Positions 3,442-24,060 of a stretch of DNA of 24,060 nucleotides are shown piece after piece. Source of the DNA: a virus; IMG/VR virus record IMGVR_UViG_3300033144_004547, positions 1-24,060 of that record; one strand, 5' to 3'. Below the pieces are notes generated by a model. The model was not told the DNA's origin. It worked only from the letters and a program-made list of their open reading frames with translations, and did no database searches. The translations under genes were made by a program, and so were the position numbers. Positions within the stretch are counted from its first letter, which is position 1. Every line of letters begins with the position of its first letter.

Positions 3442-3800
3442 GGCAGAACTGGAAAGCTCAAAAGAGACCACGCAAATAATGCAGGTTGTATCTTTTGAAA
3501 ACACAAACAAGCATCACCTAAAATCGTAATATCGTTCTGGCTCTTACAAATAACCGTACAATCCAATGACGCAGATGGCCCGGACGGAAAGATTACAGTT
3601 GTGACGATATTTACCGTTCCTTGTTCGATAACTGTAGCATCAAAATCTACCCGGTACACTTTATCACTAGTAGCAATCCTGGTTTCTAACTGGAGTTGCG
3701 TATCAAAAATCTGAACGCTCCCAGTTGTACTCACAGCTACAAATTTGACTTGACCAAAAGCCAAAGATGAAAAGATAAGAATTGAAAGTAGTAGTTTCAT
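3438..3800 (-). CDS. Small secreted protein with signal peptide
   Basis: The ATG at 3800 overlaps the TAA of the 1382-residue gene, with AGAGG eight bases upstream. The first 17 residues, MKLLLSILIFSSLAFGQ, form a textbook signal peptide: one Lys, a hydrophobic core, and a type I cleavage pattern A-F-G before Gln. There is no lipobox Cys at +1. The mature part (~103 aa) looks like a small beta-sandwich with three Cys around residues 81-99 (CTVICK, ACLC). The final ~20 residues (PALFAWSLLSFPVLP) are hydrophobic and odd. In the next frame the same bases encode a Cys-rich continuation, so a late frameshift is conceivable. A signal peptide inside a tail operon is unusual. Possible roles include superinfection exclusion or a periplasmic function, but these are guesses. 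Confidence 0.7.
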   Translation of the reverse strand: MKLLLSILIFSSLAFGQVKFVAVSTTGSVQIFDTQLQLETRIATSDKVYRVDFDATVIEQGTVNIVTTVIFPSGPSASLDCTVICKSQNDITILGDACLCFQKIQPALFAWSLLSFPVLP

Positions 3801-6800
3801 TAGCCTAACCTCTGTTGCTCCATTTCAGTTTGTTGTCCAGATTGTGCGTGCCAGATATCAACATAGTGTCGATGAAACGCATCATCTGATTTGAAGGTAA
3901 TCCGAAAAACTGTCCCACGAACTCCTTTAATCATCGGAACATCGTAGTCAATTTCTTTATTAGCTGTCGTAACTATGGTTCCATTGTCTAATTCAACATC
4001 CTTATCATAGATACGCCAGACAAGTGATGTACCAGTTGCAACCATCCGAATACGAAAACGGCGTAACCAAGTGGCGCGTGGATATTCTGCTGGACCAACC
4101 TGGTCAAACTTCTTAGATACAGGTAGAACCTCCACAACTTCAGGCGTTTCAAAGGAATAGAACTCAAATGGATCTCCTGCGGATTCTAGAGTTCCGCCAA
4201 TATCAATACCAAATGCGTCTTCTTCGATATGATGTAGTACAGTTCTCTTTTCAGTCGTATTAAAAACTGAAGATGGAAATGCTACTCCATCAATAAAGGG
4301 GGTGTATGTTACATCATTTCCTCTCGTATTGATCACAAGTGGAATAGTACGCACACGTTTTCTTGCAGCTACTCCGTAGTTTGTTGGGGGGATGACAATG
4401 AATTTGGCTGGTCCAGGGACTTTTTCGGTAACTGTGTCATCGAAGTTGATTCCATAGAATTCGAATGGAAGAGCTGACTCTCCTTCCACCGTTTCAAGAT
4501 TCCCGCCAATGTCATGTCCAATTGTTTCGCTACGGAAATAATGGATGACTGTTGATTCGGTGGTAGTGTTAAAAACAGTTGTTTCAGATTGTGCAACTCC
4601 ATCGACATACGGCGTAAACCTAACCGAATGTCCACGAGTGTTGAGGAAGAGGGCGAATGCGTGGAATCGTTTGCGTGAGTCTGTGTCAAGATTTGTCCTC
4701 GGGATTCTGAAGAATTTAGTTGGTTCTGGAAGTAGTTCAAGTCTTTCTGGTTTAAGAAGATCATAAAACTCAAACGGCTCATCCGTAAGAGCAATGATCT
4801 CATAACACAGATCAACAAAAACTTTATCCACAAGATAGTAGTAAGAGAAAGTTTCCTTCCGATTACCACTGAATGTTTTTGGGCCTTGTCTAACTCCATC
4901 TAGTATAGGCTCAAAAGAAATGGAACCGCCGCGAGGATTTAAGACAAAAGAATTTCGGCTAAATCGTTTCCTTGCCGCGGTCCCAAAGTCGGTACAGGCA
5001 AAAATGAATTTCGCAGGTGCAGGTAACGCTTCAGTAACCGTTTCATCTGCATCCCAATCATAAAATTCAAATTGCTGTTCTGTTAGTCCATCAAGAATTC
5101 CACCTAGATCCGTTCCCACGACTTCGTTCTTAACAAAGTAGATATAAGTTTCTTTTCTATTGGTGTTAATAGTCTCACTTGGTAACGAGGTGGAATCGAC
5201 CAATGGCGTAAATCGCACATCCTGTCCCCTCGTATCAATAACAAGGGCAATTCGTACAAATCGTTTTCTCGAAGGAGTGCCCAGATTAGTGAAAGGAATG
5301 CGGAACCAACGTGCAAGGTCAGGAAGAACTTCAGTATGGCGAGGGTTAAGAAGTTCATAGAATTCAACTACTCCATTTCCTTCAACTTGAATGTCGATTC
5401 CCATTTCATGCCCAATCGTTTCATCACGAAAGGCAATACTATAGAAATCCTTAACAGAACTATTTCCATTGAAGGCTTCCACGGTTTGTAACACTCCATC
5501 TAGAACGGGAGTTACAATGAAGTTATTTCCTCTGGCGTCAAGACTGAATGGTAGATCGTAGAATCTCTTACGTCCTGCAACCTTAAATGCAGTGGGAGGA
5601 ACCCGTAGGTAGTTAATTTGCTCAGGGCGGGGCTCAAAGACAATATTCCAGTAGTAGAATTTGAAGTCGTGCAATCCCGCAGTAGATACAATTTTGAGCG
5701 AGTAGGACTGTCCAAGATTGGCATTTGTTTCACTCAGATTGATATTAACAATGCTAGGGCCATTGAACTGATAATCACCAAGAGTAATGTAGTTATCATC
5801 CCCATTACTCGCAATCGAAACAGTAACGATCTCGTCATTTGAATCTGCATATAGTTTTAACACCATCAAATCTTTACGATTATTCGGCGCGCCTCCATCT
5901 AAGTACGAAGTCCTCAATTCAAACGTCTGGCGATTTGGCTCCACGTCCAAGATATCACCGACATCAATTTGGCGAATAAATTCATCGCCCCCATCTCCAA
6001 AAACTCCAAGAATGGTATCATCTTCCTCCGTAAACAAATCTACAGGATTGAGAAAATAAGGATACCAATAACGCTTGATAAAATCGTACACGTAACAACG
6101 GCGAGTAAGACCGTCTGATAATGTGACTGAGGTAAAGAGTTTGTCCTTTCGTACCGCCGCGCTATAATTGACAGTATTATCACTACCAATAAGTACGCTA
6201 GCAATACCGTGCCTAGCTTCATCATCATAGAGTAGTCTAGTATGTCCAACAAGACTTGCATTTTGTGCTCCACCTAAAATTCTCCATCCAGACCCCGACA
6301 TATAGATAACTGAGTTATCGTACACAGCATGTGCGTCAGAAATAGGAGCCTGTTTAACACCTAGAGGACGAATGATAAAATCAATTGTACCATCCGGTTG
6401 CGTAGTTCCTGTACCTGCAATCTCATAGATATCAAGAGTCGTACCTACAAGCACAGAACTATTACTTACTTTAGTGATCCAAAGATTCTTTTCCGAATCT
6501 TCTCCACTAGTGTCCAAAGTAAAACGAGAATCCACCGCATCAGGATTATTGCGATCTCCCACGAATATAAAATCACTAGTGATATAAATCGACCTAGTAA
6601 AGTAATTCGTTTCCATATCAACAACAAAATCTGCCACAGGGATGAGAAAAAGATTCGGGGTTCTATTCTCAACTGTACTCCCAGTGATTCCTGTTAAAGC
6701 AGAAAGATCAGATACGTTGTCTTTGAATTGAGATAAGTCTGTACGAATCGCAACCAAAGTATAAGACAGACCTAGACCTACATTCTTCCTGTAGATATAA

Positions 6801-7948
6801 ATCTTGTCTACTTCGTCAGGATCATTAGCAATCCCGAAAGTACCAGGATCATCAGGAGTAACCATAACAAACTGATGGTCAGCTGTGATAGTATCTGTGT
6901 CAAGACTCGCGGGCGATATGGCTTCATATTTACCTCCTGCCCAAACATTCACTTGAAGATACTGATATTTTCCGTTAAGAACTCCCTGTCCTCCCTCAAT
7001 CTTAAACTCACCAAGTGCAACTTCTTGTGTTACGGAATTTTCAATGATGATCCGCAAAGACCTAACATTGGACCAATCAAGATCCGCATCAGGCCCAATT
7101 TTGACGTAATCAGATCGAGCAGCTTCGAGACCACTCCACTGGTTAATACCTTTATTAATGAGTTCAAACTCTTTTGTAAAGTCCCACTCATGATAGAAGT
7201 AATTGTCAACATGTTCGTCAGTTCCTGGAATATCTTCTAGGAGAAATTCAACACGTACACGCTGCACACGAGTGCTATCCCGAGGATGAAACCAAAGAGT
7301 AAACTGATCGTCTTCTGAAAAAGTTCCTGTAACTCCATTTTCCACCGCCGTTAGGTCAATTGGTGTAGCTTCAGTTACTACGATTCTAAAGGTTTCTGTG
7401 TCAGCTTTAACAGCCGTGCGTAATTGATTCTTACTAACCTCAGTTCCTTCTTCTACAGAAAGAGTTTGACGGTCAGGAATAATGTCAAGTACGTGTTGCT
7501 GACTTACAAGAAGAGTTGGAACCCCTGGAGTTTGCACTCCAAGATTACGAATTGTTATACCGTCATCTTTTTTCTTTTGCTGCCCGGAACAAATGATGAC
7601 TTGTCCAACTGTAGCACCATAAGCTGTAAGCGTTTGGCCTCCCGATAATACTGTTGTTCCAAATGTACCAACTTCACCAACATCTTTGACAACGACATTA
7701 GCGCCGAACAAAACAGAGCTGAGGCCAACATACCGATGCTTCGTGCCACTAAGCGTTTTAGAATACAAAGTAAGCGGTGTAGAAGCAAATTGGTCAGATA
7801 CTTTAAGTGTACCTCTAGTAAGAGAAACATTTCCTTCCTCGTCAAGGTTCAGATTATCCATACGCACAAGACCGTTAGCACGACCACGCGTTGCATCGTC
7901 AGAAGGAATCCAACCTAGTTCAAAACTTTCGCTACCTAATTGAGACAT
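3800..7948 (-). CDS. Large tail/neck protein with propeller-like N-terminus and six C-terminal repeats (1382 aa)
   Basis: The ATG at 7948 overlaps the TAA of the preceding connector gene. The N-terminal ~130 residues (ELGWIPSDDATRGRANGLVR, then LDEEGNVSLTRGTLKVS) follow the pattern of large phage proteins that begin with a landmark about object count and a reference 'price list' of strands, as in head-to-tail stabilisation or tail-hub proteins with propeller-like folds. Residues ~140-760 are beta-rich, with many Asp-Gly turns. Residues 781-1382 contain six repeats of ~100 residues, each starting with a RIP/P-T-N-x-G-x-x-x-RKRF-type strand and containing TRG, a TP-x-x-DG strand and FEFY. The sixth is degenerate. 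Immediately after a connector gene, it probably forms the neck or tail knob. I cannot assign it to a named family with certainty. Confidence 0.85.
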   Translation of the reverse strand: MSQLGSESFELGWIPSDDATRGRANGLVRMDNLNLDEEGNVSLTRGTLKVSDQFASTPLTLYSKTLSGTKHRYVGLSSVLFGANVVVKDVGEVGTFGTTVLSGGQTLTAYGATVGQVIICSGQQKKKDDGITIRNLGVQTPGVPTLLVSQQHVLDIIPDRQTLSVEEGTEVSKNQLRTAVKADTETFRIVVTEATPIDLTAVENGVTGTFSEDDQFTLWFHPRDSTRVQRVRVEFLLEDIPGTDEHVDNYFYHEWDFTKEFELINKGINQWSGLEAARSDYVKIGPDADLDWSNVRSLRIIIENSVTQEVALGEFKIEGGQGVLNGKYQYLQVNVWAGGKYEAISPASLDTDTITADHQFVMVTPDDPGTFGIANDPDEVDKIYIYRKNVGLGLSYTLVAIRTDLSQFKDNVSDLSALTGITGSTVENRTPNLFLIPVADFVVDMETNYFTRSIYITSDFIFVGDRNNPDAVDSRFTLDTSGEDSEKNLWITKVSNSSVLVGTTLDIYEIAGTGTTQPDGTIDFIIRPLGVKQAPISDAHAVYDNSVIYMSGSGWRILGGAQNASLVGHTRLLYDDEARHGIASVLIGSDNTVNYSAAVRKDKLFTSVTLSDGLTRRCYVYDFIKRYWYPYFLNPVDLFTEEDDTILGVFGDGGDEFIRQIDVGDILDVEPNRQTFELRTSYLDGGAPNNRKDLMVLKLYADSNDEIVTVSIASNGDDNYITLGDYQFNGPSIVNINLSETNANLGQSYSLKIVSTAGLHDFKFYYWNIVFEPRPEQINYLRVPPTAFKVAGRKRFYDLPFSLDARGNNFIVTPVLDGVLQTVEAFNGNSSVKDFYSIAFRDETIGHEMGIDIQVEGNGVVEFYELLNPRHTEVLPDLARWFRIPFTNLGTPSRKRFVRIALVIDTRGQDVRFTPLVDSTSLPSETINTNRKETYIYFVKNEVVGTDLGGILDGLTEQQFEFYDWDADETVTEALPAPAKFIFACTDFGTAARKRFSRNSFVLNPRGGSISFEPILDGVRQGPKTFSGNRKETFSYYYLVDKVFVDLCYEIIALTDEPFEFYDLLKPERLELLPEPTKFFRIPRTNLDTDSRKRFHAFALFLNTRGHSVRFTPYVDGVAQSETTVFNTTTESTVIHYFRSETIGHDIGGNLETVEGESALPFEFYGINFDDTVTEKVPGPAKFIVIPPTNYGVAARKRVRTIPLVINTRGNDVTYTPFIDGVAFPSSVFNTTEKRTVLHHIEEDAFGIDIGGTLESAGDPFEFYSFETPEVVEVLPVSKKFDQVGPAEYPRATWLRRFRIRMVATGTSLVWRIYDKDVELDNGTIVTTANKEIDYDVPMIKGVRGTVFRITFKSDDAFHRHYVDIWHAQSGQQTEMEQQRLG
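3803..5608 (-). repeat. Six ~100-residue protein repeats (C-terminal half of the 1382-aa protein)
   Basis: Protein-level tandem repeats at residues 781-881, 882-981, 982-1079, 1080-1183, 1184-1281 and 1282-1382, so about 300 bases each. Shared landmarks are an RKRF or RKRV strand near position 13, a D/N-TRG turn near 25, a TP-x-x-DGV strand near 35, IG-x-D-IGG near 65, FEFY near 80 and LP-x-x-x-KF at the end. Copies 2-5 are the most alike. Copy 6 keeps only the arginine-rich strand and overall length. The DNA has diverged, so these are old duplications rather than recent slippage. Confidence 0.85.
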
Positions 7949-8685
7949 TATGAAAGTAACACTCCTACTCCATCAGCCCAATTGTCTAAACTTTCTTGTA
8001 TCTCTCCTGCACTTAATGGAAAGACTGGTTTAGATATAGTAAAGTCACCTGGAAGACGTGCGTGTCTCCTTCCTGCAAACGAAAGCATTTCCAGATCAAG
8101 ATGCTGTTTGGTACTATAATATTTATGTTTCATACGAGAAACTTTCAACTTATAGAATTCAAACTGACCTTGCCAATATTGTCCTAACTGTAGATTTTGT
8201 CCATCACCTTCTTTTGAAAACGCACGCCATAAAACATACGCTTTAACTAGTGGGCGTGTACAGTAATCCGGAATCTGAAAATGGTCTACATCTCTATCTG
8301 GAGTTGTAAACCCACTAACAAGAAATCCGTTCTGTACATTCGCGCCAAACAATCCAGTTGTAATTTCTGCAATGCTCTCATTAGGAATCTTGATAAGACG
8401 CAGTGTTTGTATTCCATCATTTGAGACTGTATAATGTTTTGGTTCATTTTGTTCTGTACGGAAATTTTCAAACTGTGCATGTGGTTCCATCCCAATCAGC
8501 GGCGTTAAAGGTTTTCCTTTCCATAAGACCGAAGTGATATTAAGCAACCTACTAGGCAAAGTATAGGTAGCAGTGCCTGAAGTAATAGTGAGACTAAAAC
8601 GCTCCCAACGCAGGTATTCTTTAACAATAAGAGCTTCTTCAGCATCTTTCATCCACCTTACTAATTGGTCATTGGTCCAGATCAT
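7948..8685 (-). CDS. Head-tail connector/adaptor-like protein with C-terminal D-x-W motif
   Basis: The ATG at 8685 overlaps the TGA of the repeat gene (ATGA). The 245-residue product starts with MIWTNDQLVRWMKDAEEALI, an amphipathic helix, followed by ATYTLPSRLLNITSVLWKGKPL. It ends its core with a helical stretch around residues 145-190 (YCTRPLVKAYVLWRAFSKEG, then QLGQYWQGQFEFYKLKVSRM). This order matches gp4-type tail accessory or head-completion proteins of short-tailed phages, which bind under the portal. The last 18 residues contain SLDNWADGV, the same short motif that makes up the repeats of the gene just upstream. A second connector-like gene lies at 12379-13038. Family assignment is by pattern only. 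Confidence 0.75.
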   Translation of the reverse strand: MIWTNDQLVRWMKDAEEALIVKEYLRWERFSLTITSGTATYTLPSRLLNITSVLWKGKPLTPLIGMEPHAQFENFRTEQNEPKHYTVSNDGIQTLRLIKIPNESIAEITTGLFGANVQNGFLVSGFTTPDRDVDHFQIPDYCTRPLVKAYVLWRAFSKEGDGQNLQLGQYWQGQFEFYKLKVSRMKHKYYSTKQHLDLEMLSFAGRRHARLPGDFTISKPVFPLSAGEIQESLDNWADGVGVLLS

Positions 8686-9656
8686 GAAACACCATCATTC
8701 CAGTTTCCTAACTGATCACCAAGACCAATATGAATTTCTTTGATTCTATCTTCAGGATCATTAAGATAACGACGAAGATATGGAATCATCTCTGCTCTTT
8801 TATTCGAGGCCAAACGGCTGATTGTTTCAGCTAAAACCTCATCAGCCCAATTATCCATATCCGAAGATACAGACTGCGTGAGTTGCGCGAGAAGATTTGC
8901 AACAAGTTCATCAGACCAGTTGTCTAAACTTTGGGCAATGTTAACTAGAATTTGCGCAACAATCTTAACATCATCTTTCCAGAAATCAAGATTACTTGCA
9001 ACACGAACTTGCCATTCAGAACTGAGTGTAACTCCATCACCCCAGTTATCTAAAGAGTCTGATAAAGACGGATTCTGTAATCCAATAAAGGTAAGCGCCA
9101 CAGCATCAGTCTGTGTCATTGAATCAGAAAGATCCGCACCAACTGAATAGAGTGGGTGTAAAGAATCCTTCCAGAAGTTCAAATCATCAGAGATTACAAG
9201 CGCGCCCTGAGAAAGTAAAGAAACAGCATCATCCCAATTGGCAATTGAGTCTGTAAAGTTAAGTGCAGGGTTCGCTCCAGTATCTACACTATCTGCCCAC
9301 GCATTAAGATCATCGGATAGTTCTGCAGCTGTTCCACTAATATCTGGTGGATCAACTGCATCCAGCCAACTATCTAAATCATCCCCAGTAAGATCCTGGG
9401 TTAAAACAACGATAAGTTGCACACCAAGAGCATCCGCCCAAGCATCAAGATCATCAGCAGCAACAAAACTTTGCTCACCAAGAACATTAAGTGTAAGTCC
9501 ATCTGCCCAACTATCTAAATCATCGCCAGTAATTTCTTGTGTTAGTGGTGTAGAAGATAGCTCTGAATAGATTACAAATGCACCAGCAGTAGCGACCTGA
9601 GCGTGCCCACTCTCAGTATAAACTGCAAAGGCTCCAGCTGTATGCACTCTAGACAT
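8682..9656 (-). CDS. Repeat protein built of D-x-W-x-D units (324 aa)
   Basis: The ATG at 9656 follows a purine-rich leader with AAGGAAAG. The N-terminus carries two copies of a TAGAF-[AV]-[VI]-Y motif (residues 7-13 and 24-30). Residues 44-278 then hold eleven units of 20-24 residues with the core D-D-L-D-x-W-x-D-x-[VL]. Tryptophans sit at 50, 73, 97, 120, 141, 162, 205, 226, 247 and 270; the unit near 180 lacks its Trp. A helical insert (residues ~280-308, KRAEMIPYLRRYLNDPEDRI) precedes a last copy, DQLGNWNDGV. The units look like short amphipathic strand or helix segments with alternating hydrophobic linkers. It is probably a virion structural protein, since it lies between a fibre-like gene and a connector gene. 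I do not recognise the repeat as a named domain. Confidence 0.8.
   Translation of the reverse strand: MSRVHTAGAFAVYTESGHAQVATAGAFVIYSELSSTPLTQEITGDDLDSWADGLTLNVLGEQSFVAADDLDAWADALGVQLIVVLTQDLTGDDLDSWLDAVDPPDISGTAAELSDDLNAWADSVDTGANPALNFTDSIANWDDAVSLLSQGALVISDDLNFWKDSLHPLYSVGADLSDSMTQTDAVALTFIGLQNPSLSDSLDNWGDGVTLSSEWQVRVASNLDFWKDDVKIVAQILVNIAQSLDNWSDELVANLLAQLTQSVSSDMDNWADEVLAETISRLASNKRAEMIPYLRRYLNDPEDRIKEIHIGLGDQLGNWNDGVS
8823..9527 (-). repeat. Tandem D-x-W-x-D coding repeat, period about 63-72 bases
   Basis: Eleven consecutive copies in the 324-aa protein. Nearest-neighbour Trp spacings are mostly 21-24 residues. The DNA preserves repeated phrases, for example the antisense of GAT-GAT-TTA-GAT around each unit. 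One copy near residue 180 is degenerate. Two further copies lie outside the array: at the protein's C-terminus (residues 314-322) and at the C-terminus of the downstream connector gene (bases 7951-8004). Confidence 0.85.
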
Positions 9657-17751: not shown

Positions 17752-19680
17752 TTATACTCCTGGTTGTCCTGCTACTTGGTTTTGAATCTGATTCGTTATT
17801 TGTTCCTGGTTTGGAGGAGTTAATTGAGCCACGCGCCCCTGTGCAATCTGATTGCCTTCAGAACCCCCAGCCCCTCTGAAAAATTGCTCCAAACCAACTT
17901 CATCAGGCGACTGCCCTGTTTGTTGCATAATCTGCAAGAGTACAGCTGTTTGTTGTAACTGACTCATTCTTGCTAGTTCTGCAATCGCTTTCTCATTTCG
18001 ATATCCAACACGTTGCGCCGTCTCATAGACAAGAGCAGGTGAAAGAGCGATTTGAGGAAAATTTGTAATGATAGAAAGAAATTCGATAAACTTAGTTTTT
18101 TCTTCTTCCTGTTCAACAGGAGAAAGCGTAGATACCTCAATAGATACTTCAAAATCATCATCACCAAATTCGTCAGATGTGATAAGCTTAAAAGTATCTT
18201 CAGTAACTTTCGCTTCAGAAAATAGATCCGGAACATCTTGGGTCAATTTAATCCAGAATGGAAGGGCTAAACTATCCTTCGCCTGCTGGATAATCTCTTT
18301 TCCTAAACCAACAAGAAATTCCGCAACAATTTCCTTATCCCTAGATTCCCGGATAACACTCCGTCTTTCTACAATTCCAGCTTGTGTAGCTGTGGTTCGA
18401 TCTGAAACACCGCGTGCTTCAGCGCTCGTTCCAGAAATGACATTAAAGTCATCCTTACTAATAGATAGAGCCTGATCGTGTTGCACACCAAGATTTGGAT
18501 TACTCAGTGGTACTACTGCATTTCCAAGATTAGGATTTTTGGCAGCAGCAAATGTTCCATCACCACCATTGATAAGTTTATCTAATTCATCAGCCTCAAA
18601 TGAATCAGGATCGTAAATAAACTTTCTTACAAACCTGCGTCGATGAATACGACCTGATTCTCTAGTTTCATTGATTTCCGCTTGAGATGAAACCCAATTG
18701 AATACAGGAGGAAGAGGATAAAACCCTTCAAGACGATCACGATACTTTAATGCAAAAATACCTGAACGCTCAAATTCATCCTCAAAGATTAGACTCCCAA
18801 CCCCATAATCAAAAATACGAAAACGCTTCGCACGTAGATCCCATATTTTCCAAATAGGAACAACATCTGTAGTATTGTCAAGATCACGCTTTTCTTGCGT
18901 AGTCATATGCGCTTTAATATTATAGGTACCATGATCCTGTGAACGGTCACCAATATTTTCAATCGCATCAATACGATACTTATTATTTCTACGCGCGGCT
19001 ACCATCAAATCTTCGCGAGATTGAAAATCAAGATACCCATACCATGAACATCTATCTAACATTTGGTGATCCGTACCACCAACACGAAAGAACTTTGCCG
19101 GAATCCTTCTAAAGTAAAGTTGTTCATTATCTGGCATTTCATCTGGTTGAACAACAACTTTTCCATCTTTATCTTGTAAAGGGGAGAGATCAGACTTTAA
19201 GAATGGTTTTTGCGCATCAGGATTAGTAATCCAATCAGCAGAATAACCAACCTCACCAATCCCAAAACGGAACCATGCATCCAGAATGATTAGTTCTAGC
19301 TCTTTAGCAAATCCTTTGATACCACCCTGAGTAAAGAAATTAAGCGCATCCTCCATCAAGCGCGCCCGTTGTCCCGCCCCATTTACATCAAAGTCCCATT
19401 TAGCCGGACGCGGTTTAATAGTAAATTGTGGGCGCGAAAACAAAAGAGTAGGTGATTTTACATCAATAGAACTAAAAATCATATTCAAAACATAGGGCAT
19501 ATATTTTGAATCGTCTGTTCTATTATCATCCTCTTCCCACTGAAAACCATAATATGCAGCTTCAAGATCATCCACCCGGAAACGACTTGCCCAGCGATCG
19601 TAATATTGATTCGCCACATCAATCCGAGATTTCCAAACTTGGACTAAATCGGTATCTTTTGTTGTAGTCTTTTTAGCCAT
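17752..19680 (-). CDS. Portal protein (642 aa)
   Basis: The ATG at 19680 overlaps the terminase TAA. The 642-residue product has the portal plan: an N-terminal region with YYDRWASRFRVDDLEAAYYG, a wing/stem-like middle (ALNFFTQGGIKGFAKELELI, LDAWFRFGIGEVGYSADW), then KDDFNVISGTSAEARGVSD and TATQAGIVERRSVIRESRDK, a portal-typical segment, followed by a helical crown region. The C-terminal ~60 residues are Gln-rich (NQEQITNQIQNQVAGQPGV). It forms the 12-fold ring for DNA entry. Closest in style to portals of P22-like podoviruses, which is inference from length and motifs. Confidence 0.88.
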   Translation of the reverse strand: MAKKTTTKDTDLVQVWKSRIDVANQYYDRWASRFRVDDLEAAYYGFQWEEDDNRTDDSKYMPYVLNMIFSSIDVKSPTLLFSRPQFTIKPRPAKWDFDVNGAGQRARLMEDALNFFTQGGIKGFAKELELIILDAWFRFGIGEVGYSADWITNPDAQKPFLKSDLSPLQDKDGKVVVQPDEMPDNEQLYFRRIPAKFFRVGGTDHQMLDRCSWYGYLDFQSREDLMVAARRNNKYRIDAIENIGDRSQDHGTYNIKAHMTTQEKRDLDNTTDVVPIWKIWDLRAKRFRIFDYGVGSLIFEDEFERSGIFALKYRDRLEGFYPLPPVFNWVSSQAEINETRESGRIHRRRFVRKFIYDPDSFEADELDKLINGGDGTFAAAKNPNLGNAVVPLSNPNLGVQHDQALSISKDDFNVISGTSAEARGVSDRTTATQAGIVERRSVIRESRDKEIVAEFLVGLGKEIIQQAKDSLALPFWIKLTQDVPDLFSEAKVTEDTFKLITSDEFGDDDFEVSIEVSTLSPVEQEEEKTKFIEFLSIITNFPQIALSPALVYETAQRVGYRNEKAIAELARMSQLQQTAVLLQIMQQTGQSPDEVGLEQFFRGAGGSEGNQIAQGRVAQLTPPNQEQITNQIQNQVAGQPGV

Positions 19681-21293
19681 TATACCCTATGTCCAAAACT
19701 GTGTGGTTGAATCCCAGCCATATTCCGGAACTTTCTTTGCTGTTTCATAGCACGTTGGCGCGCATCATTGAAAGTAGTTCCTTCAACAACAAACTTATGT
19801 ACACCTGTTTTCTTTGTCACGATACAAACATTCCCATATTTAAGGGCATCATACGCATGATCCACAACTTTATCGTCTCTATCATCTCCAAAAACATCAT
19901 CTCCATCGAGAGAATAAAGCTTTTTATACTTTTGTGACTCTGTCTCTAAAACACACTTATTACAGCCAGAAGGATATTCTTGCGTCTTCATAATAAAGTA
20001 CAAACGCGGCGCATTAGTTTTCCCTGTAACAGGATGCGTGATCTTTTCTTGGAGCATCAAAGATTCACGCAAACGTGACCTAGTAAGAATCTCATTATTA
20101 TCTGCAGGATACCAATGAATCGGAGGTGCTGGAAGATATTCTGCACTACTCCACTCTTCTGCTACACTTGAAATCCCACCTTTCTTCTGTTGTGTCTTAG
20201 AAAAGATAGCTGGATCAGCAAAATTCTGAGAGATTTGTTCCACATCCATCTGCATAAATGCAATGTTTTCTCTGTGTTGACTAACGGAATGTCCTGCCTT
20301 ATAGTATTCTCTATAGACAAACATCCACTTCTTCCACACACAAATCCACAAACAAACGGTAGGTGCAGCATCCCCGTGATCCATTGCACGATAAAGTGTT
20401 CCTTCACGCATAATAGTATCAAGAAATGTCTGTGGAACATTATATAATTTTGACTCAGCTGGGATCTCAAAAATTGATCCCCCAGAACTTCCCCATTCCC
20501 CCATTACAAAGCGCTTAACAAACGCTTTACCCCTCGCCTCCATAACATCCAGCGTCTCTTGTGAAAGCGCAGGATTCTCATAAGAGGAAGCTTGAACCAT
20601 ACTATGCGTATCAGACCATGTATACTTAGTTACTTTTCCTGTTGTGCGGTTTGTACGATAACGAATCTCATTATGTTCAGCACTATCTGGATGAAAGCGC
20701 CTATAAATCCAATGCGCTTTAACGTCTGGATTGCATAAAACCATCCCATATGAAGGCGGTTTAGGTCTTCCAGTCGCCCTATTCTTTGGAAAGCGCTCTG
20801 GATCAAGATGGTCCGGAATTTCTGACATATCCCAACGATCTAATCTGGAATCAAGGTGAAGATAGATATTTTCATCTACTTCCTCGCCTTGATCAATTAG
20901 ATATGAGTTAATTTCAAGTCCGCGCACAACATTTTCGTCATAATCGTCCAAATGCATCCAAAATACTTCAGATCCATTGATTAAACGCAAATAATTAAGA
21001 GAATCAGTCCTTTTCCCACCTTTATCGTCCGCATACATCTCTGGCTGACAAATTTTGAAGAAAGTCGCCATAGTTGTGCGCTTCAAATCAGCTGCCGTAG
21101 CTCTAAGAATTGCCATTCTATACTTAGGGAAGGTAGATAACAGTAAAATTGACTTTTGACAGCCAACATAGGTTTTACCATTACCATACCCCCCCGAAAA
21201 GCATTGATTACGTTTTGTATCATAGAAAAATTCCGACTGCGGAGACCTCCCCGTAGCCGGATCTACCATAAATTTGTAATCAATGTCAGGCAA
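19680..21293 (-). CDS. terL: Terminase large subunit
   Basis: ATPase plus nuclease that packages DNA. The Walker A motif GGYGNGKT is at residues 34-41 and a Walker B-like YLIDQGEE at 131-138. The nuclease half has D305 in MDHGD, D360 in FADPAIF and D478 in VVDHAYDALKYG, matching the RuvC-like acidic set of the family. The 537-residue length is normal. The start is probably TTG at 21293, overlapping the lysozyme-like gene by eight bases and so coupled to it; an ATG at 21269 would give a protein eight residues shorter that keeps all motifs. The basic C-terminus (RQRAMKQQRKFRN) may contact portal or DNA. Confidence 0.92.
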   Translation of the reverse strand: MPDIDYKFMVDPATGRSPQSEFFYDTKRNQCFSGGYGNGKTYVGCQKSILLLSTFPKYRMAILRATAADLKRTTMATFFKICQPEMYADDKGGKRTDSLNYLRLINGSEVFWMHLDDYDENVVRGLEINSYLIDQGEEVDENIYLHLDSRLDRWDMSEIPDHLDPERFPKNRATGRPKPPSYGMVLCNPDVKAHWIYRRFHPDSAEHNEIRYRTNRTTGKVTKYTWSDTHSMVQASSYENPALSQETLDVMEARGKAFVKRFVMGEWGSSGGSIFEIPAESKLYNVPQTFLDTIMREGTLYRAMDHGDAAPTVCLWICVWKKWMFVYREYYKAGHSVSQHRENIAFMQMDVEQISQNFADPAIFSKTQQKKGGISSVAEEWSSAEYLPAPPIHWYPADNNEILTRSRLRESLMLQEKITHPVTGKTNAPRLYFIMKTQEYPSGCNKCVLETESQKYKKLYSLDGDDVFGDDRDDKVVDHAYDALKYGNVCIVTKKTGVHKFVVEGTTFNDARQRAMKQQRKFRNMAGIQPHSFGHRV

Positions 21294-21957
21294 GAATTAT
21301 TTGTGTCCTTATTTTTTGAACTTTAACCCAAGGTGCAAGTTCAGACAACAGCAAATCCCCATCTTCTAATCCAACAACAATATGTACAGCTTCATTCCAA
21401 CGCACAAGATTTCCTATCTGTACTTCCTTTCCTGTTAGATCAATCACCTTTGCATCTACAACAAAATCTCCCGGTTTAATCCCAACAATATCTTCCCCTT
21501 GATACATACCAGGACGAGGCAAAAAGTGAACATCCTCTTTTTGTGCCCATCCCTTGATTTGATGGATCGTGCTCAAAGGATAGAAACCTCGATCCATGAG
21601 AAACTGAACTACAAACTGTGCGTACTTGACAGAATGATTTCCATCTGAATCCGGCGCAAACCCTCCATACACTCCTTCTTTCCCACCAAAGAATTCTTGT
21701 AGTGATAACTCCCTCTCTACAATGTTTTTCTCTACCTGTCTGTGAAGAGCATCAAATCCTGCTTGACGATCCTCAAAGATATCAAATCCTCCATCATCTT
21801 TTTCATTAGAGGAATCCCATCCTCTCAGATTTCCAGGATTGTTATTTCTTTTGGCTTTAGAAGGATGTCCATCTGCATTCTTAATGTAAAATCCCTCAAA
21901 ATGAGCAATCGCTTCTGCAATAAGAAGGATGATTTTATTCTGACTTGGTACTGGCAT
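21286..21957 (-). CDS. Lysozyme/transglycosylase-like protein (223 aa)
   Basis: The ATG at 21957 is preceded at six bases by a perfect GAGGAGG, so I prefer it to the longer open frame reaching 22116. Residues 14-45 read AEAIAHFEGFYIKNADG, then RNNNPGNLR, a pattern common to phage cell-wall-degrading proteins of the lysozyme superfamily. E21 is the candidate catalytic acid, and DGGFDIFEDRQAGFDALHRQ (residues 55-74) supports the family. The C-terminal ~70 residues (GIKPGDFVVDAKVIDLTGKE to the end) form a separate beta-rich domain. It could be an endolysin or a virion-associated muramidase. No signal peptide from this start. It lies downstream of a holin candidate. Confidence 0.75.
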   Translation of the reverse strand: MPVPSQNKIILLIAEAIAHFEGFYIKNADGHPSKAKRNNNPGNLRGWDSSNEKDDGGFDIFEDRQAGFDALHRQVEKNIVERELSLQEFFGGKEGVYGGFAPDSDGNHSVKYAQFVVQFLMDRGFYPLSTIHQIKGWAQKEDVHFLPRPGMYQGEDIVGIKPGDFVVDAKVIDLTGKEVQIGNLVRWNEAVHIVVGLEDGDLLLSELAPWVKVQKIRTQIILA

Positions 21958-22147
21958 CAGAAACCTCCTCGGTAAGTTTGGGCTTAGTAATGTCTGTGAG
22001 GAAAGGCTTAATATGAATAAACCTAAAACGCATCCTTTCACACCACGCCATAGCCGCAACCTGAGCTTCTTTGAAAGATTTCCCTTCAAAGAAAATCTCC
22101 GTCGGTGCTCCTGCATTTGTTTTGTGCCTTAGTTTATAAATCGTCAT
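21935..22147 (-). CDS. Small unknown protein (70 aa)
   Basis: The ATG at 22147 overlaps the TAA of the membrane-protein gene (TAATG). The product, MTIYKLRHKTNAGAPTEIFF, then KSFKEAQVAAMAWCERMRFR, has a beta-beta-alpha look and ends in an acidic, Thr/Ser-rich tail. No family recognised and no membrane segment. It lies between a holin candidate and the lysozyme-like gene and overlaps the latter by 23 bases, so it may be a lysis accessory or simply a co-transcribed small protein. Confidence 0.65.
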   Translation of the reverse strand: MTIYKLRHKTNAGAPTEIFFEGKSFKEAQVAAMAWCERMRFRFIHIKPFLTDITKPKLTEEVSDASTKSE

Positions 22148-22353
22148 TATCCATCAGCCTCCGTCTCATCTTTAGGCGCGCGCAAAGTTAACGCTAAGTA
22201 TGCAAGAAGCGCGCCTACGATTGTATTAATCAGCTCTTTTATATCAGGTGAAACTGAAATTGCAACATCTGCAACTTCTCCACCCGAGCCAGAACCAATA
22301 ATACCACCCCCGATAACTACACTTGCGATTTTAGCAATTCGTTTCCAAGGCAT
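22147..22353 (-). CDS. Small two-helix membrane protein, holin candidate (68 aa)
   Basis: The ATG at 22353 directly follows the previous TAA, with GAGGAG six bases upstream. MPWKRIAKIASVVIGGGIIG gives a basic start and a Gly-rich hydrophobic stretch (residues ~8-22). A second hydrophobic segment, LINTIVGALLAYLALTLRA, spans ~41-59, and the C-terminus is charged (PKDETEADG). Small size, two possible membrane helices, a charged tail and a lysozyme-like gene two positions downstream fit a phage holin. Evidence is topology and context only. Confidence 0.65.
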   Translation of the reverse strand: MPWKRIAKIASVVIGGGIIGSGSGGEVADVAISVSPDIKELINTIVGALLAYLALTLRAPKDETEADG

Positions 22354-22689
22354 TTAGTTCTCCTCTAGTTCTTGATCTTGCTCTTCCTTATCTATCATCG
22401 AAGTTAGCACCGCACCGGATTGTTTTTCCTTTTCCTCTATACGGTAAAGAAGTTCTTTTGCAGCATCTTTACCCCATGCCTTAAAATTCTCTTTCAATTC
22501 AACAGATAAATCTAACCGCGACTCAATTTCATCTACCAAACATTTAATGGCATATACAGATCCTGGTGGTAGAAAAGTAGAATCCTCATCTTGTTGAAGA
22601 GCATTAACTGGAGTAAGAACAACACCTTCTATCTTTGTGAGAAACTTATCACTGACTAAACTTGTTTTGATTGCAAGAGCATGATTCAT
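22354..22689 (-). CDS. Unknown small protein (111 aa)
   Basis: The ATG at 22689 has GGAG five bases upstream, a better site than the GTG at 22719 that would add ten residues and overlap the previous gene. The product MNHALAIKTSLVSDKFLTKI has a strand-rich start, a Pro-Gly turn (FLPPGSVYAIKCLVDEIESR), then helical, highly charged C-terminal residues ending EEQDQELEEN. No family recognised. It lies directly after the terminase-small-subunit-like gene and could assist packaging; this is only positional. Confidence 0.65.
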   Translation of the reverse strand: MNHALAIKTSLVSDKFLTKIEGVVLTPVNALQQDEDSTFLPPGSVYAIKCLVDEIESRLDLSVELKENFKAWGKDAAKELLYRIEEKEKQSGAVLTSMIDKEEQDQELEEN

Positions 22690-22700
22690 AAAAACTCCAT

Positions 22701-23048
22701 CTAACCGCGTACTGGGCACAACACAGAATCCACACTTACAATTCCTTGCCCTTCGGAACCGTGGATCACAATATTAATTTGATTGTTTGTTTGGTCTGGT
22801 TTATCCTCCATATACCCATGTAGTTTCAAAACGGTATCTACACAACTCTTTTTAACTCCATCGTTCTCAGAGAAACGCATTAACTCGCCAAGCGTGCTGA
22901 CCGCGTCTTCTGGGGTCAATCCGGCAGTATTTAAGATTCCGCTAATATCATTCTTCTCTTCTTTTGTAGGTTCAGTAAATCCTACTTCTGCGAGAAGGGT
23001 ATCAGCGCGACTCGAAAGTGCCTTTTCAGTCTGTGGAATCAGAGCCAC
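22701..23048 (-). CDS. Terminase small subunit-like protein (115 aa)
   Basis: A GTG at 23048 with AGGAG seven bases upstream overlaps the previous stop. Residues ~10-60 are helical (ALSSRADTLLAEVGFTEPT, DAVSTLGELMRFSENDG). They are followed by VKKSCVDTVLKLHGYMEDKP and then a short strand NNQINIVIHGSE. The helix ending in LKLHGYMEDK plus a following INIVI strand is a layout I associate with small terminase subunits that recognise phage DNA. The large subunit is ~1.4 kb downstream in the same operon. No HTH can be proved by eye, so this is a moderate call. Confidence 0.55.
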   Translation of the reverse strand: MALIPQTEKALSSRADTLLAEVGFTEPTKEEKNDISGILNTAGLTPEDAVSTLGELMRFSENDGVKKSCVDTVLKLHGYMEDKPDQTNNQINIVIHGSEGQGIVSVDSVLCPVRG

Positions 23049-23221
23049 TTTTTATCTCCTTTCTTCTCCATCTCTTTTTCTTTATTCATTAAAATCTGAT
23101 ATAAGACATCAAGGTGATTTTGAGCAGGAATAATAACATGCAAAGGAGAAGGTAATATTCCACCACCTTTTGCACATTCTTCATAAGTCTTTTCCATTTC
23201 AGCCAACTTCTTTTTGTCCAT
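23039..23221 (-). CDS. Small charged helical protein (60 aa)
   Basis: The ATG at 23221 opens MDKKKLAEMEKTYEECAKGG, followed by LPSPLHVIIPAQNHLDVLYQ and a Lys/Glu-rich C-terminus (MNKEKEMEKKGDKKWL). Mostly helical. It overlaps the previous gene by 23 bases and the next by ten, consistent with a real, coupled gene. The bases coding for the end carry the AGGAG site of the following gene. No family recognised. Confidence 0.6.
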   Translation of the reverse strand: MDKKKLAEMEKTYEECAKGGGILPSPLHVIIPAQNHLDVLYQILMNKEKEMEKKGDKKWL

Positions 23222-23429
23222 CTCTTTTATGCTCCGCTATCTTTTTATGAATTGGAGAGTTTGCCACGCGCGCAACACCTAACTCATAATCGTGGCGCTC
23301 GTTGTATTCCATCTTTACCTCTGCTGCTTTAGGCACAACGATAGTATTAAAAGGATTCATTGAATTAAGAAAATTTACCCCTTCATCTAAATCCACAAGA
23401 TGTTTCTGCCCAACCAATTTATCGTTCAT
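23199..23429 (-). CDS. First gene after the structured leader, unknown (76 aa)
   Basis: I choose the ATG at 23429, with GGAG six bases upstream, over a TTG at 23441 that overlaps that site. The product begins MNDKLVGQKHLVDLDEGVNF and ends KIAEHKRDGQKEVG. It is soluble-looking, with a central VVPKAAEVKMEYNERHDYEL. Unknown family. It is the first cistron of the operon, and its ribosome site lies 17 bases beyond the 3' arm of the leader stem, so leader folding could affect its translation. Confidence 0.65.
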   Translation of the reverse strand: MNDKLVGQKHLVDLDEGVNFLNSMNPFNTIVVPKAAEVKMEYNERHDYELGVARVANSPIHKKIAEHKRDGQKEVG

Positions 23430-23450
23430 AAAAGACTCCAAAAGAATAGT

Positions 23451-23576
23451 GGCTGGGACTGTGCCAAAAGTATATCTTTACCGTCTGAATTCATACGCGG
23501 ATGGAGTTTACGCAAACAGAATCATTCGATAAAGCCAACCCACCCCTACCTTCACTTTTAGGCACAATCCCAAGCC
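23451..23576 (-). ncRNA. Candidate structured leader RNA, ~126 nt
   Basis: Arms at 23554-23576 and 23451-23471 are complementary over ~21 pairs. The 5' arm begins GGCTTGGGATTGTGCC and continues TAAAAGT; the 3' arm is ACTTTT then GGCACAGTCCCAGCC. There are only two single-base bulges and one G-U pair. The closed interior can form a second helix (GGGTGGGTT at 23545-23537 with AACTCCATCC at 23508-23499, two G-U pairs and a bulge) and a short hairpin over the TGAATTCA palindrome (23497-23482). The 5' base of the outer stem coincides with the predicted transcript start. It could be a cis-regulatory leader, a stable small RNA, or a packaging-type RNA. No known family was recognised. Confidence 0.6.
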
Positions 23577-23582
23577 GTGTTT

Positions 23583-23612
23583 AGTATAGCATACAAGGAA
23601 AGGTTCTTGCAA
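23583..23612 (-). promoter_or_regulatory. Sigma70-type extended -10 promoter
   Basis: The coding strand has TTGCAA at 23612-23607, an 18-base spacer, then TATACT at 23588-23583 preceded by TGC (extended -10). The predicted start is near 23576. It sits in the only long gene-free gap (23430-23712), after a probable terminator. A 7-bp inverted repeat (TACAAGG at 23628-23622 and CCTTGTA at 23598-23592) brackets the -35 element and could be an operator. Confidence 0.65.
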
Positions 23613-23650
23613 GTACGCGCGCCTTGTAAGTCGCTGATAGCAAAGGGCTT

Positions 23651-23712: not shown

Positions 23713-24060
23713 TTAAGATTTAGGAATCAATATAATAGTAAATGCGCCAACAGTAGGCGAGTTGTTTTGTGAAGCGATTCCACGTAACTTAACATCGGCC
23801 TTTTCTGGGATACGAATAGGTAAGAATGGAAGCGTAGGTGGAGAAACAGAACCCGCGCCCGCCACACTTTGGTGCATAAGATGGAATACTTCCCCTTGCT
23901 CCTTATCATATAACTGACAGTCAACCGCACCCGTTCCGCCACGAAGTAGCGCACAACTATAACTCATGAGCAAGCCGGTATAATTTCTCGGAATGGTATA
24001 AATCGCCATCTGAGATTGATTCCACTCTCCAGCAAGAATAAAGCAACTGACATTACTATT
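23713..24060 (-). CDS. Virion-protein-like gene, C-terminal part, cut by window edge
   Basis: The frame is open from the window edge to a TAA at 23713, giving at least 115 residues. An internal ATG at 24009 is probably not the start, because the 17 codons before it (ending CFILAGEWNQSQ) are open and continue the protein pattern. What follows, MAIYTIPRNYTGLLMSYSCA, then VFHLMHQSVAGAGSVSPPTL and EKADVKLRGIASQNNSPTVG, resembles the C-terminal domain of phage structural proteins with a 'NQSxMAxYTIPxGxTGYL' motif. It ends FTIILIPKS. It belongs to the previous transcription unit. Confidence 0.65.
   Translation of the reverse strand, partial: NSNVSCFILAGEWNQSQMAIYTIPRNYTGLLMSYSCALLRGGTGAVDCQLYDKEQGEVFHLMHQSVAGAGSVSPPTLPFLPIRIPEKADVKLRGIASQNNSPTVGAFTIILIPKS

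Follow-up and report, generated by a model that had tools for sequence, protein, structure and literature searches.

A probable long RNA hairpin at the 5' end of a phage mRNA for lysis, packaging and capsid proteins

We analyzed a virus record of 24,060 bases from IMG/VR over its full length and refer to it as the window. The mRNA for the lysis, packaging and capsid proteins of this uncultivated phage probably begins with a long RNA hairpin. The closing helix of the hairpin lies in the gap ahead of the first small gene of the cluster, starts at the first base of the predicted transcript, and has arms that pair far better than chance allows. We consider this leader to be real, probably functional, and probably of an ordinary kind among structured leaders. 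Its anatomy suggests that it may protect the 5' end of a long message.

Results

Gene order around the leader

All major genes of the window are on the minus strand (Table 1). Read along that strand, the phrog_8198 gene is followed by the gap that holds the leader stem, small genes, an endolysin-like gene, TerL, a portal-like gene, a capsid protein gene and further structural genes. The cluster downstream of the leader thus covers lysis, packaging and capsid functions over about 23 kb, and its TerL is of the ordinary large-subunit type. Two other minus-strand proteins of the window are repetitive: a 324-aa protein (8682-9656) with many DxLDxWxD(A/G/S) motif repeats, and a 1,382-aa protein (3800-7948) whose C-terminal half holds several ARKRFxRxxLVxNTRGxDVxFTPxVDG-like repeat units.

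Table 1. Features of the leader and the neighboring genes in the window
Feature	Position	Strand	Remarks
phrog_8198 gene	ends at 23713	minus	function not assigned; precedes the gap holding the leader
Predicted sigma-70 promoter	23583..23612	minus	TTGCAA-18-TATACT, TG extended -10; 9/12 match
5' arm of closing helix	23553..23576	minus	24 nt; U bulges at 23572 and 23560
Interior	23473..23552	minus	80 nt; weak helices possible, at chance level
3' arm of closing helix	23451..23472	minus	22 nt
Shine-Dalgarno (SD) GGAGU and ATG start (23429) of first gene	23427..23441	minus	outside the stem
First gene	23199..23429	minus	76 aa; C-terminal motif RVANSPIHKKI
Rest of nearby downstream gene cluster	17752..23221	minus	small genes, endolysin-like, TerL, portal-like protein
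TerS-like protein	small gene in 17752..23221	minus	115 aa; name inferred from size, position and sequence character
Holin-like protein	small gene in 17752..23221	minus	68 aa; name inferred from size, position and sequence character
TerL	19680-21293	minus	phrog_2, Terminase_6N/Terminase_3

A long helix closes the leader

The stem joins 23576-23553 to 23472-23451 on the minus strand, so that the first 24 nt of the leader meet nt 105-126 in 22 pairs, arranged in runs of 4, 11 and 7. Both one-nucleotide bulges are on the 5' side, and two pairs are G-U, the innermost among them. The segment 23451-23576 folds to -45.4 kcal/mol, compared with -31.9 ± 3.6 kcal/mol for shuffled sequences (z = -3.7; 0 of 200 shuffles as good), and the coordinates and anatomy of the inverted repeat described in the initial annotation of this DNA are right. 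The arms alone (first 24 and last 22 nt) reach -32.9 kcal/mol, whereas the best of 10,000 dinucleotide shuffles reaches -24.5. In a fold of the leader together with the gene start, leader nt 1-3 are paired with a probability of 0.99-1.0, a value that is conditional on the predicted +1.

The annotation had judged pairing this long and this well placed unlikely to arise by chance. For the arms this view holds, but the size of the stem taken alone is less telling. Among helices with loops of comparable size, a scan ranks the stem first in the window on both strands (-34.9), and the maxima for long-range inverted repeats in six whole-window shuffles run from -26.6 to -34.2; by itself, then, its size is only mildly unusual across 48 kb of strand. 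The case therefore rests on size combined with position, at a promoter and within an intergenic gap. A strong inverted repeat that merely coincides with a chance match to a promoter would be compatible with these shuffle maxima, with the chance rate of 9/12 promoter matches, and with a coarse sliding-window ranking in which the whole-fold z of the leader segment is 6th of 399 minus-strand windows. We nevertheless consider such a coincidence quite unlikely, given that none of the 10,000 leader shuffles attains the energy of the arms, that the stem falls in an intergenic gap, and that relatives have promoters at this place, two of them with 5' hairpins.

Structure in the 80-nt interior is no greater than chance (z = +0.5). 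The two further helices that had been proposed there accordingly carry no weight, and a pseudoknot considered by eye was dropped for the same lack of excess structure. The interior does contain ACUCCA, the complement of UGGAGU at the SD, and the SD has an intermediate pairing probability (about 0.5-0.9) when leader and gene start are folded together. Both would suit a switching leader, in which the first gene's translation depends on the interior (through this pairing, for example) or on a bound protein. This is distinctly unlikely in our estimation, because 6-nt complements to an SD often arise by chance, the interior lacks excess structure, and relatives share no conserved leader sequence.

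The helix begins at a predicted transcription start

The predicted +1, at approximately 23576, is the first base of the 5' arm. We can confirm this coincidence of position between the arm and the start expected from the extended -10 promoter, to which the annotation had drawn attention. In the window, promoter matches of the 9/12 extended -10 class are as numerous as chance predicts (49 found, 49 expected). Across the 4 kb before TerL in 62 related loci, we counted 14 copies of TTGACA-N17-TAnnnT on the coding strand and 6 on the other, against about 1 in mononucleotide shuffles, and in six relatives (loci L006, L008, L010, L011, L049 and L054) the cluster's first genes have a TTGACA-17 promoter ahead of them. 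These promoters at the equivalent place support the window promoter, itself of a chance-frequency class. Such comparison of sequences supports the view that the promoter is real and that the leader is transcribed. Within 23590-23640 of the window, ACTTACAAGG is found 17 nt from ACTTGCAAGA, which overlaps the -35 element; the pair is a possible operator.

Relatives of the phage and of the leader

Searches with TerL, capsid and portal proteins returned many relatives, all of them metagenomic contigs, with TerL about 35-57% identical. The only one above 50% in TerL (L005, 57%) starts at TerL, and its leader region is absent. No relatives were found in 84,980 bacterial and archaeal genomes or by way of the proteins of the first genes, and named phages stayed below 26% identity in protein searches. 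For the leader itself, a nucleotide search of named phages and blastn and nhmmer searches of the fetched relatives gave no homologue, nor did we find a conserved leader sequence in the relatives' loci. The arm word GGGAYTGTGCC(N)AAAAGT matches 8 times in 2.9 million viral contigs, in no case with a matching second arm. In Rfam, the leader had no match up to E = 5; two weak, unrelated matches fell elsewhere in the window.

The first genes share a C-terminal motif, R(V/L)xNSP(L/I)xK, in the window, L049, L053 and L016 (relatives' versions are RVANSPLFKAL, RVENSPLDKIL and RLENSPLQKRL), which fixes the positional correspondence of these loci despite the lack of BLAST similarity. More broadly, the small first-gene proteins evolve fast while an R(V/L)xNSPLxK-like C-terminal motif is kept in the window, L016, L049, L053, L054, L012 and L115. 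Another feature of the relatives is that their long non-coding stretches before the gene cluster are dense in GTAC/AGTACTAGTAC-type repeats (L016 6058-6200, L017 6100-6240, L007 440-620, L011 5165-5265, L013 3700-3930). These stretches, which could be an origin, a packaging region or a regulatory region, have no counterpart in the gap of the window.

Two relatives have structured leaders at the same place, in sequence unrelated to that of the window. The L006 leader forms a 16-bp A+U-rich stem from +4 (z = -5.4; 0 of 300 shuffles), and the L010 leader forms a long interrupted helix that spans +5 to about +121 (z = -7.4), the top inverted repeat of its scanned region. The L008 and L011 leaders hold nothing beyond chance, the L016 leader is very short, and the L054 transcript is predicted to start at or near the first codon, nearly leaderless, so not every member of the family needs the feature. 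In L010, helix formation brings together copies of the palindrome CGCC-N3-GGYG, which is operator-like and occurs at 171, 203, 304 and 1424. The promoter spacer holds one of these copies, a second closely follows +1, a third comes about 100 bp later, and a fourth lies at a greater distance. An operator explanation therefore competes in L010, and the 3' arm there would lie inside the first gene if an upstream start is used. For both reasons the comparison with relatives' leaders is not decisive, and their 5' hairpins are suggestive as backing for a function of the leader.

The palindromes raise the question of whether the inverted repeat of the window acts as DNA and plays no part in RNA, either as paired protein sites (operators with looping) or as terminal inverted repeats bounding a small insertion. 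Apart from the L010 copies, this reading can point to TTGTGCCTAAA in the leader arm, which recurs exactly at 23328-23338 in the window. We think it rather unlikely. That recurrence is near chance level, and the arms differ by one-nucleotide bulges and a G-U-giving change, as would be expected of an RNA helix more than of protein sites; moreover, the arms are not themselves palindromes, and neither a target-site duplication nor a second copy was seen. The 11-nt repeat has its leader copy at 23557-23567 (minus strand) and the other in the first gene. We rejected derivation of the 5' arm from this coding repeat because the match ends at 11 nt.

Discussion

We tentatively propose, giving it a little less than an even chance, that the leader forms a hairpin at the 5' terminus of the lysis, packaging and capsid transcript and so shields it from 5'-end-dependent decay. 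From a start near 23576, the transcript would pair its first 24 nt with nt 105-126 in a 22-bp stem flush with the 5' end. The stem would stop 9-10 nt short of the SD and leave it outside. The 5' triphosphate would then be hidden from RppH-type pyrophosphohydrolases and from decay of the RNase E, J or Y type, and the long late mRNA would survive and be translated. RppH and RNase E both need single-stranded 5' ends, and stabilization of mRNA by 5' secondary structure is established (reviewed in PMC3997798, citing Belasco's group).

The anatomy fits a stabilizing 5'-terminal stem-loop: the helix is flush with the predicted +1, the SD and start codon lie outside the stem but within about 20 nt of it, and the message is long. 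In this way, the leader resembles those of ompA and papA in E. coli and aprE in B. subtilis, where a helix is at or near the mRNA 5' end and the SD is outside (PMC3997798). It differs from them in its longer closing stem (22 bp) and 80-nt loop; the sequences are unrelated, and stabilization here is predicted. The L006 and L010 leaders, which fold from near their starts in unrelated sequence, are as expected if a 5'-proximal helix matters and its sequence does not. Several observations weigh against protection of the 5' end. No homologous leader, and hence no covariation, was found among the loci searched; a 22-bp stem with an 80-nt loop exceeds the length needed; and the 3-4 unpaired 5' nt in L006 and L010 would be less protective. 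Stabilization of the mRNA by the leader is what we infer from this anatomy.

Alternatively, host RNase III could cut the 22-bp stem, and this would either mature the 5' end of the late mRNA or unblock the first gene. The helix, with its two one-nucleotide bulges, has the roughly two turns of double-stranded RNA that such substrates offer, and the SD follows it closely; cleavage itself is a prediction. Like R1.1 of the T7 early mRNA, the leader is a long imperfect stem ahead of a gene in a phage mRNA, and the lambda N leader is another RNase III site in a phage mRNA ahead of a gene. Compared with these sites, the window has a large interior without excess structure and a stem flush with the 5' end. 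The 16-bp A+U-rich stem of L006 and the interrupted stem of L010 would be poorer substrates, and we regard processing by RNase III as unlikely.

A nascent hairpin at +1 of a long phage transcript also recalls HK022 putL, which sits just downstream of PL (PMC9378689). A put-type antiterminator would bind RNA polymerase and allow read-through of terminators along the cluster. However, put RNA consists of two stem-loops in about 70 nt (PMC9378689), whereas the window has a single long-range helix with an interior at chance level and no Rfam match. Antitermination of this type is improbable.

The initial annotation had further raised the possibilities of a free small RNA and of a packaging-type RNA, and neither gains from the present results. 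In size (about 120 nt for phi29 pRNA) and paired ends the leader is superficially like phi29 pRNA, and packaging genes are nearby. In contrast to that RNA, it forms an mRNA leader that an SD closely follows, and the TerL is of other, ordinary families. The Rfam search, which the annotation had put forward as a check, matched no family, that of phi29 pRNA included, and several relatives with the same TerL type have leaders that are short, unstructured or absent. Release of a free RNA fits poorly with the lack of a listed terminator-like site after the stem and with the start codon so close behind it. We find a packaging RNA or a free small RNA scarcely credible.

The annotation's wider suggestion of a structured leader for a packaging operon has fared better. 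The position, the closing helix, the relatives' promoters and the two 5' hairpins all favor it, although the operon is in fact one for lysis, packaging and capsid together. One could further envision that late transcripts in this phage group repeatedly re-evolve a long 5' closing helix that acts in cis, on stability or on polymerase processivity, with pairing alone under selection; this broader idea is unlikely.

A long, well-placed stem need not be a packaging RNA. If the proposed protection of the 5' end is right, the hairpin would mark where the late mRNA begins in phages whose group came to light here from metagenomes alone. It would also offer a testable case of 5'-end protection for a very long phage message.
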